A stretch of 25,066 nt of DNA from a virus, in IMG/VR virus record IMGVR_UViG_3300021961_000588, positions 1 to 25,066 of that record. The stretch is one strand, 5' to 3'. The notes below the pieces were generated by a model, which saw nothing but the letters and a program-made list of their open reading frames with translations, was not told the DNA's origin and did no database searches. The position numbers were made by a program, and so were the translations under genes. Positions 2,875 through 20,086 of the stretch are shown here, piece after piece (the stretch's first letter is position 1; each line of letters begins with the position of its first letter).

Positions 2875-3570
2875 TTACGGTCGGAAGTAGCTCGAAACCA
2901 TCGGGGAGATATACTGCTGCGCGGTTTCTACGTTCTGTTCCGCCGCAATCGCATAAGCCTCGTCAGCCATCGGCTTCAGAAGCTGGACCTTGTCGGGTGC
3001 CCAGATCATCGCAAGGCGCTGCGCCAGACCATACGCAAAGCACTCAAGCCACAGATACGGGATATCAACCTGCTGACCATTGGTCAAAGCGGAATCCTCG
3101 ATCCTGCGAACCCTGTAGTACTTCAGGTACTGCGGGCCTGTGGACGTATCTGGAACCGGCCAGATCGTGACTGTAGGAGAAAGAAGTCGGTCAAACCAGA
3201 ACACGGTCGGGAAGCCCTGCTGATCCTTGTTTGGATAGCTGGCATACTCCGTGCGGCTGATCGGCATGATGATGCGATCAATGTCAGTACCGGACTGGTT
3301 CGTGGTGACATACGCATCGAGGATCATCACGGTATCGGCATCGACCGAATATGTGGATGTCCCGGTGGTCAGCGTAGTCGTCACCAGATCGACCTTCCAC
3401 AGGTTGACACCTTGGTTCGACCAGCGAGACAGCATCAGGTTCGATGCCATCCTAGCCGACTCAAAATGCTCCTGAAGCAGAGCCGTGTTCCTGACGCCGC
3501 ACAGGTTGAATGCATACAGGACCAGTTCGCCAAGCGACGGGTTGAAAGTGTATGTGCCGCTTGTCGCCAT
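2875..3570 (-). CDS. P22 gp4-like head-closure/tail accessory protein
   Basis: A 231-aa protein with the pattern of the P22 gp4 (packaged DNA stabilisation) group. It shows a helical start ('LGELVLYAFNLCGVR', 'SARMASNLMLSRWSNQGVNL'), then 'DTVMILDAYVTT', 'RIIMPISRTEYASYPNKDQQ' and 'SPTVTIWPVP', and ends in a helical region. In P22 this protein binds under the portal, closes the channel after packaging and carries the tail. Here it follows the coat module and precedes the fibre genes, the expected order. GAGGT lies just before the ATG. The absence of tape-measure or sheath genes nearby supports a short tail. Confidence 0.75.
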   Translation of the reverse strand: MATSGTYTFNPSLGELVLYAFNLCGVRNTALLQEHFESARMASNLMLSRWSNQGVNLWKVDLVTTTLTTGTSTYSVDADTVMILDAYVTTNQSGTDIDRIIMPISRTEYASYPNKDQQGFPTVFWFDRLLSPTVTIWPVPDTSTGPQYLKYYRVRRIEDSALTNGQQVDIPYLWLECFAYGLAQRLAMIWAPDKVQLLKPMADEAYAIAAEQNVETAQQYISPMVSSYFRP

Positions 3571-4604: not shown

Positions 4605-4862
4605 TCAGCCCTCGAAGCCGGGGCGCATCGTCCCCTTGGCAGCCGACGAGAACACGCCGCCACCCGACTTGCGGGGCTTGCGACCAGCGTGAGCCATCGC
4701 CGCAGCACCGTGGATCTTGCCCATGTGCTTCGCCTTGCCACCACGCTTGAAGCCCTCGGCCTTGTTCTTGGCCTCGCGCGCGACGTTGGAACCCGCGCCA
4801 GCATAGAACCCCGAACCGAGATCCTGCTGCGCCTTCACACCCTTCTGAGTCTTGCCCTTCAT
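4605..4862 (-). CDS. Small basic KRGG-motif protein
   Basis: An 85-aa very basic protein ('KAEGFKRGGKAKHMGKIHG', 'AHAGRKPRKSGGG'). It shares the K/R-x-GG-(K/R) motif style of the 620-aa protein at 9380-11242, and ends in a short 'SSAAKGTMRPGFEG' tail. A good Shine-Dalgarno sequence precedes the ATG (AGGAGAAGGCAAA). No enzyme motif, membrane helix or signal peptide is seen. It is probably a virion or DNA-binding protein. The shared motif suggests that the same partner or processing activity acts on both proteins; that is inference. Confidence 0.6.
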   Translation of the reverse strand: MKGKTQKGVKAQQDLGSGFYAGAGSNVAREAKNKAEGFKRGGKAKHMGKIHGAAAMAHAGRKPRKSGGGVFSSAAKGTMRPGFEG

Positions 4863-9379: not shown

Positions 9380-11242
9380 TCACTTCCTCGACGCAATCTC
9401 GGTCTTTTCCAGCCTCCCCAGACCGGAACCCGCGCCAGCATCCATGTCCTTGTAGCTGCGGTAGACCTTGCCACCAGCACGACGAGCCGAACGCTTGTGC
9501 GTCGCGATCTCGGTCTTCTGGAGGCGACCTTCACCCGAGCCAGCACCAGCCGTCATGTCCTTGTAGGACATCGTGCGACCACCGTGCTTGCGCCCCATCG
9601 GCATGGGACCGGCACCCGGCATCGCGGGCGGGGGCGCAGCAGGCGGCATCGGGCTGGCAGGCATACCCATCGGGGCAGCACCCGGACCACCAACCGGCAG
9701 CGGCGGCGGAACGGGACGGCCACCCGGCATCGGCAGCGGGGGAAGCGCGCCAAGGCCCATCGGAGCCTTCGCACCACCAGCATCGATCACGATGTTGATG
9801 TTGGTCTTGCCCTTCTTGGTGCGGCCACCAGAGGCGCGAGCCATGCGCTTGGCCTCGCCACCACGCTTGAAGGTCGGCGGAAGCATCGGAGACATGCGAG
9901 AACTCTCCGCGCGCTCCTCCTCTTCCTTCTTCTGCTGACGGGCAGCAGCCGCCTTCTTGGCGCGGAAGGCCTTGTACATCTGCTCCATCTTGGCTTCACG
10001 CTGAACGTCAGCCATCTGCTCGTCAATCGGGTCCATAGGCTTGGGCATACGAGCGGGAGGCCTCTCCTCGCCAGCGTAGGAGACGTAACGCTTCTTCGGA
10101 TTGGGATTGCTGGCAGTCGCGCGCGAGAGAACTCGCTCGATGTCGCTGATCTTGCCACCAGCCGCACGGCGAGAAGCAGGCGGAGGAGGCGGCGGGGGCG
10201 GCGGCGGAACAGGCGCGGGGCGACCACCACCGGGCATGATCCCTTCCGCAAACGGATCTTGACCCTGACGAATCATCCTGCGCTGGGCAGGAGTAAGCTG
10301 ATAGTCAGCAGGCGGCGGGGGAGGCGGCGGCGGGGGCGCATCGGTCATGCCACCACCAGCCTGCTTCTTCGCGTAACCGCCGCGACGGAGCTTCAGTTCC
10401 GAATGCTTGCCGCCATGCTGCGCCGTCTCATGCTGGCGCATGGCCTTCTTGACCAAAGCCTTGTCCTGAGCGGTGTCGTCAGCCTTGCCGCCCTTCTTGA
10501 GGCCGGTAGCGCGCATGGGAGAGAGAGCGCCACGCTTGACGCCAGAGAAGCCAAGCATCGCATTGGGGACACCGGCTCGCTGGGAGGCAGCAGCCATCAT
10601 GCGATTGGCCCCGCCAAGAGGACCGCCATCGTACTTCTTGGCACGACCGCCGCGCCGGAACGAATCATCCTTATCAGAATCATTTTGCTCAACTCGCTTG
10701 CCACCCTGCTTGCGATAATTGAGAACAGTCGAAGCATCATTTACCTGATCAAGATACTTTGCCTCAGACTTTGGACTATGACCACGCATCGCGCGAGCGG
10801 CTTCACCAGCATCCTTGATGATGTATCGAAGCGCCTCATCACTCTTGGTGTGGTAAGAATGCCCCTTGATCGGCATACCACCGCGCGCATACGCAGCACC
10901 GCCGCGCTTCAGACCACCAACGTGCTTCTCGCCCTCACGATCCTCGTTGGCGTCCTTCACGTTGCGGTTGACCTTGGCATTTGCATACGCGACCGCTTCG
11001 GTCTTGCCACCAGACTTGCGCTGCTTGCGATCCGCGCGCATCGGCCCGCAGGAACCGTCAACCTTGCCGCCGCTCTTGTAGGCTCGGCGCGAGACGGGAC
11101 GAAGCCCGGTCTTCACATCAGCCTTCAGCATCTCAGGCGGGGTGAAGGTCGAGGAATCAACCTTCTGGAGCGGACGGTCAGAGGCAAGGCGCTTGGCCTT
11201 GCTCTTCATGGCTTCGCGAGCCTTCTTTGCAGTCTGGTACAT
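9380..11242 (-). CDS. Basic K/R-x-GG repeat protein with polyproline tracts
   Basis: A 620-aa very basic, largely disordered protein. Short motifs such as KSGGK, KRGGA, RRGGR, KKGGK, RRGGY, KHGGR and RAGGK recur every 20-50 residues through the whole length. Two proline tracts of nine to ten residues flank 'LTPAQRRMIRQGQDPFAEG'. A Lys/Glu-rich helix ('KAAAARQQKKEEEERAESSR') and a Pro/Met/Gly-rich region follow. The C-terminus carries two copies of a 'SYKDM-AGAGSG-GRL-KTEIA' unit. TAGGAG precedes the ATG. Similar motif-rich proteins occur in phages near portal and scaffold genes, with unknown function. Basic charge and position suggest an internal, DNA-bound virion protein. It shares the GG motif with the two giant proteins upstream. 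Confidence 0.7.
   Translation of the reverse strand: MYQTAKKAREAMKSKAKRLASDRPLQKVDSSTFTPPEMLKADVKTGLRPVSRRAYKSGGKVDGSCGPMRADRKQRKSGGKTEAVAYANAKVNRNVKDANEDREGEKHVGGLKRGGAAYARGGMPIKGHSYHTKSDEALRYIIKDAGEAARAMRGHSPKSEAKYLDQVNDASTVLNYRKQGGKRVEQNDSDKDDSFRRGGRAKKYDGGPLGGANRMMAAASQRAGVPNAMLGFSGVKRGALSPMRATGLKKGGKADDTAQDKALVKKAMRQHETAQHGGKHSELKLRRGGYAKKQAGGGMTDAPPPPPPPPPADYQLTPAQRRMIRQGQDPFAEGIMPGGGRPAPVPPPPPPPPPPASRRAAGGKISDIERVLSRATASNPNPKKRYVSYAGEERPPARMPKPMDPIDEQMADVQREAKMEQMYKAFRAKKAAAARQQKKEEEERAESSRMSPMLPPTFKRGGEAKRMARASGGRTKKGKTNINIVIDAGGAKAPMGLGALPPLPMPGGRPVPPPLPVGGPGAAPMGMPASPMPPAAPPPAMPGAGPMPMGRKHGGRTMSYKDMTAGAGSGEGRLQKTEIATHKRSARRAGGKVYRSYKDMDAGAGSGLGRLEKTEIASRK
9383..9570 (-). repeat. Two-copy C-terminal direct repeat
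   Basis: The last about 27 codons (9383-9463) and a copy at 9493-9570 both encode SYKDM, AGAGSG, GRL and KTEIA. The DNA copies have diverged at synonymous sites, so the duplication is old and kept at protein level. Confidence 0.75.
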
Positions 11243-11304: not shown

Positions 11305-14133
11305 TCAAGCCTTCTTGGATGTTAGCATGAGTGCGCGCGACACAACACCACTTTCGTTCTTCTTAAAATTTGACTCTTCACCGCCAATTCCTTTGAACCC
11401 CAAAGCTCGCATGGCAGATGCCACAGGATGACTCAAAATGGGGGAAGAGATTGCCCCGCCAGAAGCAGCCCCTCGCATTGCGTCGATTACATCCTGATGA
11501 GTGGTGGTTTCATTTCCAACTTTATCCCAAATTGTGTGATGTGCAAGGTGCTGGTAGTAAGGGGAAAGATTTTGAGGAATTGTCAAATCTAAAGCCTTTT
11601 GCCTCCTAGCAAGCCTGTCAACTGCTGAAGCTCCAGCACCAGACCTTGAAAGATACTTTGAAGCTTCATCAGACGGACGGCCCGTATGAAGAACAATTTG
11701 CCTTGCATCAAGAGTTGGTTGATCTCCACGGCCAATCATAGATGCCATGAACCCAGCCTTAGATTCTCTAATTCCCCTGATAGGCTTGACCAATTCTCTC
11801 CACTCGCTTGGAGATGACTGCATTTGCTGCGCCCTAGAAACAAGTTCAGAAAATTTCTTTTCTTGCCCCGGAAGATTGTTTACCGCCCAAGTCAAAGCAT
11901 CAACAAGCTGATTTTGCCCACCAAAAGGCCTCATAATCCTAACTGCATCTTTAATGGCATCCTCATTGATGCGACCTTTCTCCGCATCATTTAGATAATT
12001 TTGCCCATAACTTGTATGAAGCCAATGACCAAATGCTCCTTCGGGCCTAACCATACCAGTAATACTATCAGGTATATTTAATCCGGCGTTTCTTACAGTA
12101 TCTGCCTTTCTTGCTGCCCTACGAATTGAAGATCTTGTAATTGTATAAGCTTTAATTAGATCGCGAGCAGACAATCCCTCCCCTGAAGCTTTGCTGGCAG
12201 TTTCATCCATAAAATTTCCGAAATCTTGGACATGCGACGGTATTTCGGATACGCCAATCTTTTCTCTAACCCTTGAAAGAGGCTTCCATTTCCAATCTGA
12301 AATGCCTTTCCGAGTAGATCCACCTTCAGCGTAGCCAACAGGACCAGTCGGGTAGTCGGTGGGAATCCGCGCCAGAGCGTTCTGCAACTGACCGATGTTG
12401 TATTCCTGATGCTGCTCCCGTGTGAGAGCAGGCTCTCCCGGCATGGTCGGCTCATGGCGGATCACGGGCTGACGAGCCTCCGCTGCGTCCATAGCGGGAT
12501 AGACCCGGTCGATGGCGCGGGAAAGCTGGTCTAGGAGGCTCTGCTGCTCGGATGTGAGTTGAGGCATGGATTGAGTATCTCCCGTTTTCCCGCCAGAAGA
12601 CATCGAAATTTTAGGCATTTCAGATTCACCTTCAAGGGCATCTTTTGCTTCAGAGAGCCAATCCTTGACAGACGAAACATCTTCATGATTTAAAATATGA
12701 ATATAGTTTCCAAACCTTTGAGGCCCAACACTATGATCAGATACCCTAATTTCAGGTGCAATATATCTTCTTCCTCTTACCAAAACTAGCGGAATATATG
12801 CACTATTTCCAATTTTTGTTTGAGACGAAGAATATGGATGATTTTCGTCTATATTTGCCTTTAGCTTGTAACCGAGTTCAAGCGCATGATTAGCAATATT
12901 ATGAGCAATATCAAAAACCTGCTCTCTTGATATTGGATTTTTAATTTTTCCGCCAGAAGCCATAGGCACAGCCCCGCCTATCTCATAGCGACGCTTGATG
13001 TTGATCAGCTTGTCATCAAACACGACGTAATTTTGTGTGCCTTTTCCCGCTCCGCGAGAACCGGCGTCAAGGTATTTGATTCCGGGTATGCCAGCTTTAA
13101 ACAAAATTTTTGATTGCTCAACCCTTGATGGATTTAAAATTTCAAGAACATTCGCAATTGGAAGATTTTCTTTTTCTTTTTGAGTTAGGTGAACAATTTT
13201 GCTTAAAAGACTTGACGCATATTCTTGCTCGCTTAGAGGCTTGTCCCAATCAAGAAATTTATCGGGGTGCGCGTTGATGCGAACCTCATAAATATTGCTT
13301 CTATTTTTTTTAATTCTTTCAATGGCCGCTTCCGCTTGCTCAAAGTCAAGCAGCCCATCTGCTGCCCTTGGTATACTGCCCATTTTTGCCAAATCGTACA
13401 AAACATCTGTGTCAGATTTGCCAGCATTCATCAATCGCAAAATATGCTCTTCCTGCTGATTTAAATCATATTTTGAAAGATTTTTTGCAGTAAACTCTCT
13501 ATCGTAAGAGCCGCCGCGCCCACTAACCGCTGGGCTTTCGGCAAAATACATACCATAGCCATAACTTTGAGCACCCTGACCAGTACCAATCTTTGATATG
13601 TCAAATTTATCAAATTTGTGAGGAGATGAATGATAGGCGTCGATGCCTATCTCTTCCGCAGGGAGAGGAGAGGCGATGTCGGATTCATCGACTGGGCCGC
13701 CAGATGCCCTAGCAGACCTGCCCCTGATGCGATTGATGATCTCCTGACCTCGCTTGGACGGAACATCAGGGTTGGGATTGGAGAAGCCGCAACCCCGGCC
13801 AAGGTCATACGGGGGCTTCTTACCCTTGCTGGTGAATTGCTCCTTGGTCGGGTCAATCACATGACCCGTATCGCGATGTCGAAGCCACCAATGAGTCGTG
13901 CCGTCACCTAGATTTGCAACTTGAGGGACGTAACCGCTTTCCTCGCCGCCAAGCATGTAATACGCGGCCTGAGTAGCTGATCCACAATGACCGAAGGTTG
14001 GATGCTCGCCCTCGCTCATCTTCCTGTACTTTGGCTTAAGAAGATCGGGCGTCAGAACAGACTGAATCTTGCCGACAAGATCCTTGGTTTCCTTGTCGGA
14101 GAGAGGACGCCTTGTTTCTTGATCGTCAGCCAT
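11305..14133 (-). CDS. Polyvalent-type protein: Cys peptidase-like, ART-like and HhH-GPD-like modules
   Basis: A 942-aa multidomain protein. ATG 14133 (GGAG six bases upstream) is preferred over TTG 14154, which overlaps the preceding stop. Residues 1-140: a papain/transglutaminase-like domain with C50 ('GHCGSATQAAYYMLGG'), H81 ('THWWLRH') and D94 ('HVIDPT'). Residues 160-385: an ADP-ribosyltransferase domain with H168 ('AYHSSPHKFDKFDISKIGTG') and 'YGYGMYFAES', as in ART-PolyVal proteins. Residues 395-510: an unrecognised AT-rich module. Residues 515-600: GC-rich helical. Residues 605-888: a helical domain with 'FGHWLHTSYGQNYL' and an HhH-GPD-like 'SKAGFMASMIGRGDQPTLDA'. Modules are separated by ASGG, ASGG, SSGG, AEGG and ASGG (near residues 144, 393, 513, 603, 891). 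It is probably a packaged, delivered protein; activity is inferred. Confidence 0.75.
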   Translation of the reverse strand: MADDQETRRPLSDKETKDLVGKIQSVLTPDLLKPKYRKMSEGEHPTFGHCGSATQAAYYMLGGEESGYVPQVANLGDGTTHWWLRHRDTGHVIDPTKEQFTSKGKKPPYDLGRGCGFSNPNPDVPSKRGQEIINRIRGRSARASGGPVDESDIASPLPAEEIGIDAYHSSPHKFDKFDISKIGTGQGAQSYGYGMYFAESPAVSGRGGSYDREFTAKNLSKYDLNQQEEHILRLMNAGKSDTDVLYDLAKMGSIPRAADGLLDFEQAEAAIERIKKNRSNIYEVRINAHPDKFLDWDKPLSEQEYASSLLSKIVHLTQKEKENLPIANVLEILNPSRVEQSKILFKAGIPGIKYLDAGSRGAGKGTQNYVVFDDKLINIKRRYEIGGAVPMASGGKIKNPISREQVFDIAHNIANHALELGYKLKANIDENHPYSSSQTKIGNSAYIPLVLVRGRRYIAPEIRVSDHSVGPQRFGNYIHILNHEDVSSVKDWLSEAKDALEGESEMPKISMSSGGKTGDTQSMPQLTSEQQSLLDQLSRAIDRVYPAMDAAEARQPVIRHEPTMPGEPALTREQHQEYNIGQLQNALARIPTDYPTGPVGYAEGGSTRKGISDWKWKPLSRVREKIGVSEIPSHVQDFGNFMDETASKASGEGLSARDLIKAYTITRSSIRRAARKADTVRNAGLNIPDSITGMVRPEGAFGHWLHTSYGQNYLNDAEKGRINEDAIKDAVRIMRPFGGQNQLVDALTWAVNNLPGQEKKFSELVSRAQQMQSSPSEWRELVKPIRGIRESKAGFMASMIGRGDQPTLDARQIVLHTGRPSDEASKYLSRSGAGASAVDRLARRQKALDLTIPQNLSPYYQHLAHHTIWDKVGNETTTHQDVIDAMRGAASGGAISSPILSHPVASAMRALGFKGIGGEESNFKKNESGVVSRALMLTSKKA

Positions 14134-14150
14134 CTCTGTCTCCAAGATCC

Positions 14151-17100
14151 TCAAAGATTACCCGTCTTTTTCAGAAATTCAACAAGCGCATCTCCGGTCA
14201 ACTGAACAAAAGGCTCAATTGAATCGGTAGAAACATATTCATTTTCTTCTATGCCCGGAACAGTAAGATTTCCAAATATATCGCTATAAGAATGCAGAGG
14301 TGTGCTCCATACCTTTTTTCTCTTGCCATATGGATCTGTAACTTCTTCTGTATGGTGAAAATCATCTCCGACCCAATAAATGTTGTAATCTTTCAGATCT
14401 TTTTTATGAACCAATGCAAGATGCCCATGATTTTTAATGTCATCCTCCATCAGTTCGTTTTCGTGTTTTCCAAGCTTTCTTGCCGCAATTGTCTTTACCC
14501 ATTCAGGCTTTCTTGAATACCAAGATGCCTTTGGAAGTGATTCTTTATATTCTCCGTATTCGCTTTCAGACATTCCGTAGTCTTCGCTATCCATGTTTTC
14601 ACTTGTCCAAGTACCAGACTCAGCACTCATCGGATCAATGCCATGCTTCAAATCATTTGGATCTGCGGGGGATGAGTGATAAATAAATCTGTTTTTGTTT
14701 TTTACCAAATAGTTGACATCTGGAATTTTTCCCTTGTGATTGTCACTAACAATAATTCCTTCATTTTTATTTTTGGGAACATCTCCTCCAGAAGAAAATT
14801 TGCCAAATTCCTCTCCAAGGAAGATCGGCCTGCCGTGGATCTCTTCCCTGATATGTACACCGGGAATTGAAAGAACGGGATGGATATTTTGCGGAACCCC
14901 GCCACGAGCCATCATAGGCGCAGGAGGAGGAGGAGGCGCAAACCCGACAGGCTTCACCATGCCAGCCTGCGTTTCCTCGTCGTCGTTTGATAGGCGGAAG
15001 CCATAGAAGGAAGGTTCAGGCGCAAGAGGATCGGGGATCATGCCGCTGTCATTCCCACCAGCACGATTGCCGGGGAAGCCAGCTTCATAAGCTGCCTGCT
15101 CTCGGGAAGCCTGCTCCGCACCACGACCGGGTCTCGCTCCACCGGGATCAACGACATCGTATCCCTGTTCGCGAGCGGCCTCGTTCAGCTTTTCCGCGCC
15201 AAGGGCAACCAGACCCAGAGGTGTGCCACCGATGAATCCAACGATACCGGGGCCTGTGTTCAGTTGCTGCTCTGCCGTTCCCAGAAAACTCCCGCTGGTG
15301 TTCCCCACTCCAACACCGAGGGAGCCAGATCCGGGTGGCGAGAAAGCCGTGCCCGTAGCCCCACCAAGCATTGATGGGTCTGATTCAGGAGGAGAGTAGC
15401 TGGGAGGAGCATCTGTGCTGAAAGCAGGAGAGTCCTGAGTAGCATCTGGCGCGGAGTCCCCACCGCTTCCAGAATCTCCGAACCCTCCTCCAGAGGTATC
15501 CGAGTCACCACCAGCAGCACCACCACCGACCTCAAAGTGCTGCCTAACCTCTCCACCGCGAGCGTAGTAGGAGAAGCCCCGCTTCAGGATCGATTCACGC
15601 AGTTCAGGAGTGATCTCGATGCCGGGGAGCGTGACATTCTCTCCGTCATTGCCCTTCACGACATGGGATGTCGGCTGGATCTTGTCTGTATGAGGCTTGA
15701 GGACGCGACGGAGAGCGGAAGGAAGCATCTTGTCGTAGAAGGACTTCATGCCTTCGCCACCGACCTTTAGGTCAAGACCCTCAAGGCTAGGAGGGTGCCT
15801 ATCAATTTCTTCCTGCAACTTATCATTCAAATGTTCACGGGCATCACTCTTGGAGTCAAACTCAAGCATTCCCCCGCCATGATCATGCGAAGGTTCTCCA
15901 TAAAGGTACAATCCCCACTTATTGCTATTTGGATGCCTTAAAACCTCATATTCATCTAAAAAAGATTTGGAATAATCAGATTTCTCAAGAAGTTTTTCGG
16001 CAAGTTCATTTCCAATATACTTTTTGATATCATGAGGCTCTACGTCATTTTCATATATAACATTTCGACCACTTTTATCATATGCATTAAATGACTTATC
16101 AAGTGGATGATATGTGACTTTGCTAATCTGTTTGCTCAGATCATATCTCTTTGCCTGCTCCTCACCCGGAGTCCAGACAAGCTTGTCGTATCCTCCGCGA
16201 GCGGCTTCTAGCAAAGCGCGCTTGAGGCCAAGCTCGACCCAATGGTCGGTGTTGGTGACGTAGGGGGCTGGTTCAATATGATCATCAAACCCACCCAATC
16301 TAGAAACTTCACTATAAAGATTTTTATATTTACTTACTTCATCATTGGGAATACTCATAAGTTTTGCATATCTTTCAAGATCATGCCCCGGATGAAAGCC
16401 ATATTTGTCTCCAAGATATTTTTGATGTTTGCTAAATTCATTTCTTGCAAATTCTCTTTTTTCTTTCATATCTTTGGTGTCAAAACCCTCATCTCGCCCC
16501 TTCTGCGCCCAGTCGGACTGAAGCTCTTCAAGGTGGAGGATGTTGTTATCGGGACCGCGATCCTGCATTCGCAGGTGGGTTACGATGTTTGTAGGTTCCC
16601 AATGAGAAGACTTGAACTTCTCCTCTCCGGGAAGATGGAGGAGGACTTCACGATAGTTTTTTGGATCATTTCCAACTGTATATTGTCCGTATTTAGTTGG
16701 TTCAATTTCACCTATAGGAGCCTCATCTTCAAGGCGCTTATCTCTTTCAAGAATTAAATTGCTTATTTGACGACGCAATGCTTTTACTGAGCCAATAGCC
16801 CCTTGAGAGTACATTATATCTACACGCTGCCTAAGTTCATTTATATCTGAATCATATTCTGCAATAATTGCATCTCGCTTGCTCTTAATTTCAGGATCAA
16901 TTTTACCACCAAGGACAGTTTCCTTGATCTGAGGCACATTCTGCTCGAAATGCTGGGCGAGATCGTCCTTTGTCACGGACTTCTGGCCCGCAAACTTGTC
17001 CTGTACCCCAGACCACTCAAGCTCGGCAGGCTTCACACCCTTCATGGTGGCTAGCATCTGCTGGGGAGTTCCCTTGGATTGGGGGAGGGAACGAGCGGAT

Positions 17101-17795
17101 TCTGCGGCGGAACTGTAGAAGCCCATGTCATCGAGATTGCGAGGCTGGTCTACGTCCCCGCCAGAAGCGTAGCCAACGGCACCACCATCAGCCTTCACGA
17201 CCACATGATGGTAGACAGGATGCTCCTTGCCCCTGACGCTGATCGTCCCGGCCTGCGGGCCAAGGAACACATCGCCAGTCGTCGTCGGACGAAGCCTCGG
17301 CTCGCTCCTTGACTCGGCGTATCGAGCAAAATCCACTCCCTTGGGGAAGTGTGCGTTCAGCGTGTAGTAGTGCTTGCCGCGATGCTCGACGGACACAATC
17401 GTGTTCGTGTCCTCATGACCTTCTGGCGCGGTCTGCCACGACCATCCAGCCTTCTGCTTGAACAGGTTCGTCTTGGTCTTCGCCTTGCCAGCAGTCCCGG
17501 TCTGGTCAACGGCATCACGCGACGCATTGAAGTAAGGCTTGCCACCCGGACTTACACCGATTGAGGCAACAGCAGACTTGTGTCCCGTCATGTCCTGCTT
17601 GTCAGGCATTCCGAGATACTGACCTCCGGGGACGGGAGCGTCGGAGGGGAACATCCTCTGTGGCTTGGGAAAGACAGAGACAGGATTGGAGATGGACGGA
17701 GAGATGTCCTTGGGATCAGCATCCCCGCCAAGAGCGAACCTGCGAGGCGAGCGAGCAAGCCTCAAAGCGTCTCGGATGATCCGGTCGTAGCTCAT
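14151..17795 (-). CDS. Giant polyvalent-type multidomain protein
   Basis: A 1214-aa protein whose ATG overlaps the portal stop (ATGA). Residues 1-24: a basic amphipathic helix ending FALGG. Residues 25-205: an unrecognised domain ('KPYFNASRDAVDQTG', 'GKHYYTLNAHFPKGVD'). Residues 215-740: a large domain known from phage polyvalent proteins, with 'KGTPQQMLATMKGVKPAELE', 'LHLEELQSDWAQKGRDEG' (about 418) and 'LVWTPGEEQAKRYDLSKQ' (about 536). Residues 748-960: a Gly/Ser/Pro-rich linker with a hydrophobic stretch ('GPGIVGFIGGTPLGLVALGA'). Residues 1005-1214: an AT-rich module with 'FIYHSSPADPNDLKHGIDP' (H1040) that resembles ADP-ribosyltransferase-like domains. GG motifs lie near 23, 211, 747, 965 and 1003. 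Position after the portal suggests an internal or ejected virion protein. No catalytic role is proven. Confidence 0.7.
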   Translation of the reverse strand: MSYDRIIRDALRLARSPRRFALGGDADPKDISPSISNPVSVFPKPQRMFPSDAPVPGGQYLGMPDKQDMTGHKSAVASIGVSPGGKPYFNASRDAVDQTGTAGKAKTKTNLFKQKAGWSWQTAPEGHEDTNTIVSVEHRGKHYYTLNAHFPKGVDFARYAESRSEPRLRPTTTGDVFLGPQAGTISVRGKEHPVYHHVVVKADGGAVGYASGGDVDQPRNLDDMGFYSSAAESARSLPQSKGTPQQMLATMKGVKPAELEWSGVQDKFAGQKSVTKDDLAQHFEQNVPQIKETVLGGKIDPEIKSKRDAIIAEYDSDINELRQRVDIMYSQGAIGSVKALRRQISNLILERDKRLEDEAPIGEIEPTKYGQYTVGNDPKNYREVLLHLPGEEKFKSSHWEPTNIVTHLRMQDRGPDNNILHLEELQSDWAQKGRDEGFDTKDMKEKREFARNEFSKHQKYLGDKYGFHPGHDLERYAKLMSIPNDEVSKYKNLYSEVSRLGGFDDHIEPAPYVTNTDHWVELGLKRALLEAARGGYDKLVWTPGEEQAKRYDLSKQISKVTYHPLDKSFNAYDKSGRNVIYENDVEPHDIKKYIGNELAEKLLEKSDYSKSFLDEYEVLRHPNSNKWGLYLYGEPSHDHGGGMLEFDSKSDAREHLNDKLQEEIDRHPPSLEGLDLKVGGEGMKSFYDKMLPSALRRVLKPHTDKIQPTSHVVKGNDGENVTLPGIEITPELRESILKRGFSYYARGGEVRQHFEVGGGAAGGDSDTSGGGFGDSGSGGDSAPDATQDSPAFSTDAPPSYSPPESDPSMLGGATGTAFSPPGSGSLGVGVGNTSGSFLGTAEQQLNTGPGIVGFIGGTPLGLVALGAEKLNEAAREQGYDVVDPGGARPGRGAEQASREQAAYEAGFPGNRAGGNDSGMIPDPLAPEPSFYGFRLSNDDEETQAGMVKPVGFAPPPPPAPMMARGGVPQNIHPVLSIPGVHIREEIHGRPIFLGEEFGKFSSGGDVPKNKNEGIIVSDNHKGKIPDVNYLVKNKNRFIYHSSPADPNDLKHGIDPMSAESGTWTSENMDSEDYGMSESEYGEYKESLPKASWYSRKPEWVKTIAARKLGKHENELMEDDIKNHGHLALVHKKDLKDYNIYWVGDDFHHTEEVTDPYGKRKKVWSTPLHSYSDIFGNLTVPGIEENEYVSTDSIEPFVQLTGDALVEFLKKTGNL

Positions 17796-20086
17796 CAGAT
17801 GCCTCCGCCCATCTTATCGCGCGCAAGCTCGTTCAGGGCCGGGCGGATCAGAGGAGCAACCAGACCCGCGCTCTCGGGATGGACAGCGAGGTTCTGCGCC
17901 AGATCCACAAGCTGGACGCGCTCCTTCGACAGGCGATCCTCTCGCTTGTTCTCCAGATCGGCATCCGAGTAGTTCATCTCCGCCTTGGCCTTCTCGGCGT
18001 CGATGTTCGTCTTCGTCACCTTGCTGTGCGCGTCGATCTGCGTCTTGGCGTTCTCAAGCTGGAGCTTCTCCTGCTGGGCTTGCACATCGGCCTGCGCGCG
18101 CATCGTGTCGGCGTCAGCCTTCTGCTTGTCGATCTTCAGGCGCTCCATCTTCTCGATCAGTTCAGGATGCGGCCTGCCCTGAGCTTCCATTGGGATCAGG
18201 AACTGCTCTGGGTTGCTCCAGCCAATCGTCTTCAGGGCTTCCGTATCAATCGCAACCGGGTCGTACATGTTGGGGTTCGCGGCCTGAAGCTGTTTCAAGG
18301 CCATGACCTTCATCACCCGCTGCGTATGGCTGGCCGTATTCGGGTCAGCCTGCGGGACAAGCTCGCAATCGTTCAGCGCCTGAAGGAAGGTCTGCTCGTT
18401 CCACTCGATGCTGGGCTTCTTGCAACGCTGCCAGAAGCTCTCGGGATGCTCACGGAAGCACCGGACCAGAAGCTGGAACTCCTCGGCCTGCGCGTTGTGC
18501 ATACGCTTGTGGACCGCATTCATGACCTTAGTGGCCTGATCGATCAGGGCCAGCGTCGTCCCCACAGGCGCATCAGCCTTGCCCTCGCCAACGGCAAGCT
18601 CTGACGTACCGCCAACCCGCGCGCCAGTCTCGCCCATGTTCTGGACGAGGTTCATCAGCGCAGCGGAAGGCTCCTTGTACGGCAGCGGCATCACAGCCTG
18701 ACTGATCGGCATCCCGCCGGTCTTCACCAGCGCACCACCACCGGGCGGCACACGGAAGATGTTGGTGTTCTGGCGCGCACCCGTATCAGCCATGAGGAAT
18801 CCGGGGAAGTTCGCGTACATCCCGGCGTCCAGAAGCTCGCGCCAAGCAGCCGTCATCGCATTGGTCGTGTTGCCAAGGATGTGCAGCAGGCCGATGTCGT
18901 AGAAGCCCATGCCCGGAACGAACGTGTACTTCACGAACACCTTGCGCGCAGTCGGAAGCTCGCCGTCCTCCTCGTCGTAGTTACGCACGACAGAGAGGAT
19001 CTTCTTGGTCGAGACATCAATCGTCACGCGATACGGGATCTCAAGGCCGGAAGCACTTCCCTTGTACTTGTGTTCAAAGCCCTGAATATCGAGTTCGCAA
19101 TAGCACTCGTAGATCTCGCGATCCCGATCATCGGGGTTCATCGTCCCTTCGGAGATACCCTGCTGTGCGTTCTTCTCACGCTGGACGCTGTCAAGCTGCG
19201 GCTCCAGAGGCGTCGAGAGATCCACATCCTTGTACGCGCCAAGGATCTGCAAACGCTTCACCGTCGAAGGACGCATGAACACACGATGCGTGATGCGCTT
19301 CGCGTTCTGTAGATCCGTCGCCATGTTGTTGACGATCAGGTCGTCCGCATCGACGCTCTCGCTCACCGGCCTGTTACGCAGCGGGCAGAAATAGACCTTC
19401 TTGAACGAGCAGCCGCCAAACCCAAGCATCAGCAACATGCGGTCCGTGTCGGGGTAGTACTCGGACGCCACGCTGGTCAGGTAGTGGTTCAGATCCTTCT
19501 CCAGAGCCTCGCTCAGGCGATCCTGCTGCGGAGTGGTCGTCGTCGCATCGTTCCTGATCTTCACCGGCCCATCGGTCGGCAGAAGCTCGCTGCGGGCATT
19601 GGCCTGAAAGCGCAGGACAGCCTCCAGAAGCAGAGGATGGCGGACCTTGCTCATGCCCTCGACAGGAGCGCCATCGGACGCGCCCTGTAGCCCCGGAATC
19701 TCGATCTTCAGCCCCAGAAGCTTGATGCCCTGCGCTCGGTCCTCGATCCAGTCCTTGCGGCTCTGTAGATCATCCCCGATACCGCGCATCAGTTCCTCGC
19801 TGATGCGGCTCAGTTCACCCTCATCGATGTCATCGACAAGGTTGCGGAACCATTCCTTTGCATACTCAGCCTCGGACTGGCCCTCGTCGGCAATCCCCTT
19901 CCCATCCAAGGAAACCGTGACCGATCCGTCCTCATGCTCGATGCGGAGGATCTCGCCACGGTCGTTCCTGTCAGCCTTGGGCTGTCCCTCATCGATCTCG
20001 ACAACTACCCCCGGCCCTGCCTCCTCCATCTCGGGAGACGGAAAGACCTGACGCAGATTAGGCACAAGGCCGGGTGTCATCGGCAT
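17795..20086 (-). CDS. Portal protein (P22-like)
   Basis: A 763-aa portal, close in length to P22 gp1 (725 aa). Motifs typical of large podovirus portals are 'DWIEDRAQGIKLLGLKIEIP', 'KVRHPLLLEAVLRFQANARS', 'FGGCSFKKVYFCPLRNRPVS', 'VFVKYTFVPGMGFYDIGLLH' and 'AWRELLDAGMYANFPGFLMA'. A long coiled coil near the C-terminus ('KQKADADTMRAQADVQAQQE') would form the barrel seen in P22. The protein forms the dodecameric ring at one capsid vertex and is the docking site for terminase. AAGGAGG precedes the ATG by six bases. It follows terminase, the tRNA and a small gene, and its stop overlaps the next start. Confidence 0.85.
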   Translation of the reverse strand: MPMTPGLVPNLRQVFPSPEMEEAGPGVVVEIDEGQPKADRNDRGEILRIEHEDGSVTVSLDGKGIADEGQSEAEYAKEWFRNLVDDIDEGELSRISEELMRGIGDDLQSRKDWIEDRAQGIKLLGLKIEIPGLQGASDGAPVEGMSKVRHPLLLEAVLRFQANARSELLPTDGPVKIRNDATTTTPQQDRLSEALEKDLNHYLTSVASEYYPDTDRMLLMLGFGGCSFKKVYFCPLRNRPVSESVDADDLIVNNMATDLQNAKRITHRVFMRPSTVKRLQILGAYKDVDLSTPLEPQLDSVQREKNAQQGISEGTMNPDDRDREIYECYCELDIQGFEHKYKGSASGLEIPYRVTIDVSTKKILSVVRNYDEEDGELPTARKVFVKYTFVPGMGFYDIGLLHILGNTTNAMTAAWRELLDAGMYANFPGFLMADTGARQNTNIFRVPPGGGALVKTGGMPISQAVMPLPYKEPSAALMNLVQNMGETGARVGGTSELAVGEGKADAPVGTTLALIDQATKVMNAVHKRMHNAQAEEFQLLVRCFREHPESFWQRCKKPSIEWNEQTFLQALNDCELVPQADPNTASHTQRVMKVMALKQLQAANPNMYDPVAIDTEALKTIGWSNPEQFLIPMEAQGRPHPELIEKMERLKIDKQKADADTMRAQADVQAQQEKLQLENAKTQIDAHSKVTKTNIDAEKAKAEMNYSDADLENKREDRLSKERVQLVDLAQNLAVHPESAGLVAPLIRPALNELARDKMGGGI

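Follow-up and report, generated by a model that had tools for sequence, protein, structure and literature searches.

Base composition changes abruptly inside single reading frames of this locus, and the question is whether the steps mark protein modules that have been exchanged at recurrent two-glycine (GG) linkers. The window, i.e., the whole stretch of 25,066 bases analysed here from a virus record, is a 25-kb piece of a tailed phage genome and is incomplete as a genome; the source virus is water-borne and infects bacteria. The genes of interest lie on the minus strand, as do all features given below for the window, and encode TerL, an SU10-like portal protein (17795..20086; GC3 0.78, used as the backbone reference), the proteins g1214, g949 and g620, a GroES-like protein, a capsid protein matching phrog_371 (major head) and tail proteins; the GroES-like label is based on the syntenic groES of MW202675 together with reading of the sequence. 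The open reading frame of g1214 (14151..17795) directly follows the portal gene and encodes a polyvalent-type multi-module protein, whose modules were compared with those of relatives, that of g949 (11305..14154) encodes a second multi-module protein with weak ART-PolyVal and YunG matches, and g620 (9380..11242) is a basic protein rich in GG linkers, with 11 [AKS]xGG sites and with gain and loss of cassettes. At 284-2131, a collagen-like, tail-fibre-type protein with long GPTGPTG repeats is also encoded.

The best annotated relative of the window is MW202675.1 from Manatee Spring, with a portal identity of 66%; cultured relatives include Caulobacter, Pelagibacter and Roseobacter phages (portal identity 30-35%), and the close relatives compared here show 87-99% portal DNA identity. 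The polyvalent genes are located right after the portal gene and ahead of the groES and capsid genes. The interval between portal and groES holds only three short genes in Caulobacter phage RW, small genes in HTVC027P and none in Alcaligenes phage QDWS535, and the polyvalent genes are therefore regarded as an optional locus.

All GC values quoted in the earlier note were reproduced by direct counts (16321-16380, 25.0%; 13141-13200, 28.3%; 12421-12480, 66.7%), and the same counts gave 60.9% for 12320-12590, 57.9% for 16140-16260 and 54.3% for 16490-16640. The GC-rich block that had been described between two linkers is indeed bordered by them and AT-rich outside, while one linker position needed slight correction: the glycines of AEGG are at 12319-12324 (previously 12330); those of SSGG are at 12589-12594. 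This resident block (12319..12588; GC 0.604, GC3 0.63) is delimited by GC3 steps from 0.22 to 0.73 at 12570 and from 0.73 to 0.33 at 12348, and another block border is formed by a step from 0.70 to 0.22 at 12960. Segmentation of g1214, g949 and g620 by GC3 yielded 16 change points, including an alternation of 0.68/0.18/0.63/0.14/0.65/0.16/0.54 along 16922-15926. A general association of change points with motifs was not significant in this window alone, as 6 of the 16 fell within 10 codons of a motif against 3.9 under the null (P=0.17). Across the family, with near-identical ORFs removed before counting here and in the segment-end analysis below, the GC3 step was larger across [AKS]xGG (0.138 vs 0.120, z 5.4; 792 sites in 121 non-redundant ORFs) and was not raised across other GG in the same ORFs (z 0.3; 1014 sites); the [DE][KR] control in these ORFs also showed a somewhat raised step (z 2.3-4.1). 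The stronger evidence for borders at linkers is the gain and loss of modules in relatives, not the GC change points.

In blastn comparisons with close relatives, alignments break abruptly inside g1214, g949 and g620 and run uninterrupted through the portal gene, and the proposed exchange of modules at GG-linker positions is borne out: relatives keep, lack or substitute whole modules without loss of the reading frame, and the junctions fall in linker codons and carry direct repeats of 10-27 bp. In g949, the YunG-like module Y (13696..14154; phrog_12251, with similar stretches in Caulobacter phages) is followed by the ADP-ribosyltransferase-like (ART) module R (12973..13695), which has an AT-rich interior and ends at the linker EIGGAVPMASGG. 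The GG of the linker PMASGGK (12949..12954) is the upstream border of cassette M (12604..12949; GC 0.36, GC3 0.22), which has the 13/14-bp direct repeat ATGKCTTCTGGCGG on either side. Cassette M is carried only by the window and contig L083, with no relative found outside the window's own lineage, and it is missing in L084, L087, L004, L007, L105 and L008; these six contigs were counted as five distinct viruses, because L084 and L087 are 99.7% identical, so that M is absent from 5/5 distinct relatives. At the junction 12950/12603, the flanks overlap by 14 bp in linker codons. Beyond the GC-rich block, module T (11455..12318; GC3 0.33) is bordered by AEGG and ASGG linkers. In g620, a cassette (10656..10897) is missing from 6/6 contigs covering the site, with the junction (10898/10655) lying within KRGG/RRGG codons at a 10-bp direct repeat, and an indel of +174 bp at 9825/9851 is accompanied by a direct repeat of 27 bp.

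A similar picture was obtained for g1214. The GG of the linker RRFALGGDA (17724..17729) borders module A (aa 25-204, 17184..17723; GC 0.585, GC3 0.68, backbone-like), which in L102 is replaced by an ART module of near-equal length, after which 99.7% identity resumes. The double linker ADGGAVGYASGGDV (17157..17186) separates A from module E, the 'EELQSD' domain (aa 213-748, 15552..17159), and at its GYASGGD (junction 17155/17175) L087 carries an additional ~590 bp (+591 bp, 21-bp direct repeat) and L008 an additional 556 bp (17-bp direct repeat), with the linker standing on both sides of the extra bases. A glycine-rich, GC-rich segment between the linkers YYARGGEV and MMARGGVP (14898..15551) is followed by the GG of the linker KFSSGGDV (14784..14789), which borders the AT-rich module K (14154..14783; GC3 0.31). 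Module K together with the gene end is absent from L004 and L105, is 99.5% identical at the amino acid level to the window copy in L008 and 72% in L087, and was found in near relatives only. A clean deletion at 14812/14145 uses TTGGAGA at the gene ends and involves no GG linker. The resulting module orders are A-E in the window, B-E in L102, X-A-B-E in L008, A-C-E in L087, C-E in L004 and X-A-E in L007 and L105, with all joints in this series being GYASGG[DE] or FA/AL-GG linkers, and more distant loci show A-R, R-T, R-E-T, T-B-R and other orders.

These comparisons make it likely that the accessory multi-domain proteins exchange modules in frame by recombination between GG-linker repeats; the support comes from comparison of sequenced relatives, the events themselves being reconstructed. 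That the borders are assembly chimeras or artefacts of amino acid composition is most improbable. Contig L003 stops exactly at the linker at 17729, as if assemblers break at repeats, which would also be expected if cassette variation breaks assemblies; against an artefact, the second contig record L083 is identical to the window (100%) along 9171 bp with all borders included, and the composition signal sits in third codon positions.

The preference of junctions for the linker was then quantified, with a minimum HSP length of 40 bp for structural junctions, 60 bp for pooled ends and 100 bp for family-wide segments. In the window, 17/36 structural-junction ends lay no more than 15 bp from a GG (6.4 expected, P=0.0013), the remaining 19/36 lying elsewhere, and when dipeptides were ranked by fold, GG came only 7th of 155. 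When all alignment ends were pooled, true indels together with diverged stretches, the signal was weaker (18/50; GG 10th of 155 dipeptides), and the median distance of these pooled ends to the strict linker motif was not significant (P 0.37). Among 119 non-redundant ORFs of the family, 156 of 839 shared-segment ends lay within 9 nt of [AKS]xGG against 63.3 expected (z 12.6), other GG had 96 ends against 59 expected (z 5.1), and of eleven dipeptide controls most had z values around or below zero, the value for KG being 3.0. With close relatives left out, the enrichment at [AKS]xGG was retained (100/521 ends vs 42.2 expected, z 9.6), the controls being KG at z 4.3, RA at 2.9 and other GG at 3.5. 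Segment starts and ends have their offset peak right at the GG, and the linker is therefore mostly included in the shared segment. Together, g1214, g949 and g620 contain 17 copies of the strict motif, which is also present twice in g85 and is absent from the 13 other listed genes of the window; g85 (4605-4862) is a small basic tail-region protein of 85 aa. As well, GYASGG[DE] was seen shortly before a 'GPGxxTSDSxPAxLSDGE'-type sequence in unrelated phage proteins (L179, L121, L185, L119, L156, L183 and L159). No report of the GG linker was found among the literature matches listed, which cover papers outside subscription.

The same linker connects unrelated modules, and a cassette behaves as a module plus its downstream linker, as would a dedicated site-specific, integron-like cassette system acting at linkers. 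Such a system is nevertheless very improbable, given that no fixed core exists in the linker DNA, which occurs in many variants, the two linkers of a single L008 cassette differ synonymously, and junctions appear scattered over the linker with no fixed crossover point; a fixed recombination site at the nucleotide level was not found. The linker DNA differs at synonymous sites, and repeats between phages are imperfect. Conservation of the linker peptide while its synonymous codons vary might instead indicate that GG linkers are protease sites of a polyprotein, the borders then reflecting selection on the protein and not a part of linker DNA in recombination. We regard this reading as possible, if somewhat doubtful. 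DdrB and DarA of phage P1 are processed, and Iyer et al. (PMC5512222) liken polyvalent proteins to viral polyproteins; on the other hand, no peptidase was found to accompany the linkers, and the junction repeats of 10-27 bp also fit a role at the DNA level, the two readings being compatible. A role of the YunG-like module as a linker-specific protease was not supported, as linkers also occur in L007 and L016, where a YunG-like match is missing, L016 being a short contig.

Not every composition step in g1214 belongs to a module border. The GC alternation between 15.8 and 16.9 kb, which the earlier note had read as module borders, turned out to reflect a single domain, E, whose conserved cores are separated by hypervariable segments, namely var1 (16647..16904; GC3 0.19), var2 (16269..16475; GC3 0.16) and var3 (15762..16115; GC3 0.30), all AT-rich. 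Between the window and L087, the cores of E are 92-96% identical in DNA and the variable segments 43-56%. L007 and L008, whose portals are 97.4% identical over 1420 bp, share var2 at 99% and differ in var1 (69% over 28/79 codons) and var3 (62%). The GC3 of E is 0.12-0.35 in variable segments and 0.58-0.78 in cores, except for core1 of the L007 group (the misaligned L016 N-core value was left out). In that group alone, core1 is conserved as protein yet AT-rich (GC3 0.29-0.36), as if swapped whole. In L016, the reading frame of the E domain is broken near its start (~3054-3223). The structure model of E (pLDDT 82.9) shows var1 and var2 as largely helical insertions. We rejected translational accuracy as an explanation of the GC-rich cores, since GC3 in the E cores of the window is no lower at variable sites (0.70) than at invariant ones (0.62). 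In E, the variable segments are swapped as blocks between the conserved cores, and such a second layer of exchange, with AT-rich segments swapped between GC-rich cores, is likely for the ART domains too.

The direction of the composition shift bears on where the modules came from. Portal, TerL and capsid genes have a GC3 of 0.78-0.82, while g949 and g1214 overall have 0.40-0.47. After removal of 16 duplicate or near-copy loci, module GC3 was below that of the portal of the same locus for R in 28/28, E in 24/24, T in 14/14, B in 11/11, C in 11/11 and A in 10/11 cases, the match sets of B and C overlapping since these two modules are homologous. In addition, of the segments that relatives have gained or substituted, 13/13 measured ones lay below the 0.60 backbone, and the GC3 of A and T follows that of the portal with a slope near 1. 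These regularities favour a drift of fast-evolving accessory domains towards an AT-rich mutational equilibrium, with codon selection, or GC-biased conversion with homologous partners, being weak there and conserved genes staying GC-rich, an explanation to which we give slightly less than an even chance. Drift does not readily account for a step that is block-wise and not site-wise, as the E-core values at invariant and variable sites indicate, for module C, which keeps a GC3 of 0.60-0.61 in phages whose portal GC3 is 0.81 and 0.95, or for module T, which is low (0.30-0.33) only in the window's lineage and ranges over 0.37-0.91 elsewhere; nor would point mutation alone produce the strongly diverged segments beside near-identical cores of E in the window and L087. 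The claim that modules were acquired from different sources stands in part: some carry an alien composition (M, K at 0.24-0.32, T and C), and the deviation is almost always towards AT. Since the AT shift is seen in nearly every phage, composition alone is no proof of different source organisms. Accessory domains are in general shifted towards AT, which accounts for part of the composition pattern; M, K, X, the B copies in L102 and L008, and T of the window's lineage are outliers and still look like recent imports.

Separate phylogenies of the modules, a check suggested in the earlier note, conflict with one another. Trees of the portal, module A, the start of g620 and the C-core of E place the window with L087 (and with L102 and L003 where present) at a support of 100/100. 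By contrast with these, in the trees of module Y and of a stretch reaching into the ART domain the window groups with L105, L008 and L004, and a pairing of the window with L087 was rejected (AU p 0.0016 for module Y, 0.0058 for the stretch). Transfer over a larger distance is indicated by L134, a phage of 66% GC whose portal is 31% identical in amino acids and whose module C has 81.1% DNA identity to the L087 copy over 599 bp. The match continues past the downstream linker by a few codons and then stops, and module C forms a sharp GC dip in L134 (0.52-0.53 in 300-base windows of that ORF). Sequence comparison shows that one cassette, module C, has been transferred to a distant GC-rich phage, in which it retains a composition of its own.

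The predicted functions of the modules agree with those of polyvalent proteins, which have been described in phages and conjugative elements with ART, PBECR, LPD, PcfJ and DarB-like modules (main text of Iyer et al. 2017, PMC5512222). ART-PolyVal was found in 16/32 related ORFs scanned, together with PBECR5, LPD23, PcfJ, GP88, InPase and a DarB-like antirestriction phrog; several effector or conflict domains occur in one polypeptide, which is encoded beside virion and packaging genes. Modules B and C of relatives pass the gathering score of Pfam ART-PolyVal (PF18760) with 96.3 and 64.1 vs 31.2 bits, whereas module R of the window scores 12.9 bits and stays below it; a homologue of R in L105 (46% identity) reaches 32.8 bits. 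AYHSSPH, GYGMYF and VVFDD stretches seen by eye are candidates for the H-Y-D residues of an ART active site. By Pfam, B and C are putative ADP-ribosyltransferases and R is probably a relative. Module T is predicted to have the HhH-GPD fold of 8-oxoguanine DNA glycosylases: its AlphaFold2 model (pLDDT 87.8) aligns with 3n0u_C at Z 16.2 and rmsd 2.9 over 202/208 residues, a Foldseek match to 3fhg has an E of only 0.03, and K187 and D204, candidate catalytic Lys and Asp, are invariant in 15/15 aligned sequences. A homologue of T sits in an MW202675 protein annotated as 'type I restriction enzyme', and stretches of ~110-125 aa homologous to module Y are found in hypothetical proteins from Synechococcus phages and from Caulobacter phages such as phiCbK. 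For module E, a Foldseek search gave nothing below E 0.04, and VIA-align gave distant GNAT-like rows at Z 7-9 and an isocitrate lyase 2 domain at 10.4 (rows of L016 and L002 were removed from the structure alignments). According to the model outlined in the main text of PMC5512222, the modules may act as injected effectors.

Taken with recombination between linker repeats as the preferred explanation, the accessory locus between portal and groES would encode polyvalent-type, probably virion-delivered, multi-domain proteins, whose modules (ART, YunG-like, DNA-glycosylase-fold, E and others) are joined by a recurring linker of approximately [YMFKR][AKS]xGGx[VAPIT]. The linker codons could serve as short repeated homologies, and recombination, either between two phages at their linkers or inside a single gene at its repeats, would insert, remove or replace modules in frame, the exchanged unit being a cassette of module plus linker. 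New or fast-turning modules would be AT-rich against a backbone GC3 of ~0.8, and since arriving modules are AT-rich, composition steps would often fall at linkers. The recombinase might perhaps be a Sak4/RecE-type system as in the related complete genome MW202675, which encodes a RecE-like exonuclease, an SSB and Sak4; the Sak4 gene belongs to this relative and was not found in the incomplete genome of the window. Sak4 of HK620 has been reported to anneal oligonucleotides diverged by up to 20% (text of PMC5928155), a tolerance that would suit imperfect linker repeats. We further propose, tentatively and at somewhat less than even probability, that the GG linker is a portable joint of many unrelated phages, with the peptide kept for a putative role as hinge, docking or cleavage site and the DNA serving as a homology arm for open in-frame cassette exchange.

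Related arrangements are known. In T-even phages, conserved glycine-rich motifs in the adhesin gp38 reportedly flank variable segments and act as recombination points, in work attributed to Tetart and dated 1998; that case involves alleles of one domain in a single receptor-binding protein, whereas here unrelated whole domains are concerned in several large proteins. Morons are AT-rich accessory insertions in phage genomes, unlike which the AT-rich insertions here sit within reading frames. The proteins studied here resemble polyvalent proteins in being multi-domain and coded beside virion genes, and mosaicism and cassette-like recombination are mentioned in PMC5512222, but the words linker and glycine are absent from its main text; relative to that text, what is added here is the position of module borders at a GG linker that recurs and goes with repeats in the DNA and steps in composition. 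Similarly, Smug et al. (2023, PMC10684548) describe recent intragenic shuffling of fragments, sub-domain mosaicism included, and conflicting phylogenies within a gene cluster, as expected of intragenic phage mosaicism, were observed here; in that text, where the word 'linker' is absent, the clear recent cases are receptor-binding proteins and endolysins, while here effector-type proteins share a common joint sequence. Effector domains are also swapped as cassettes in polymorphic toxins, in which (PMC3482391) the C-terminal tips are replaced, whereas the modules here are internal, stand at multiple positions and have a repeated linker.

The finding provides a readable rule for the gain and loss of domains in phage effector proteins, namely that the linker is the module border, and linker-marked modules can therefore be excised, counted and given functions across uncultured phages. 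Three signals that are mixed in GC plots, i.e., cassette borders, hypervariable segments within domains and the AT shift of accessory proteins, are now separated, and it becomes testable whether short coding repeats drive the in-frame exchange of domains. If the reading of the linker as a portable joint is true, phages would assemble new combinations of delivered effectors, and the composition steps would record recent arrivals.
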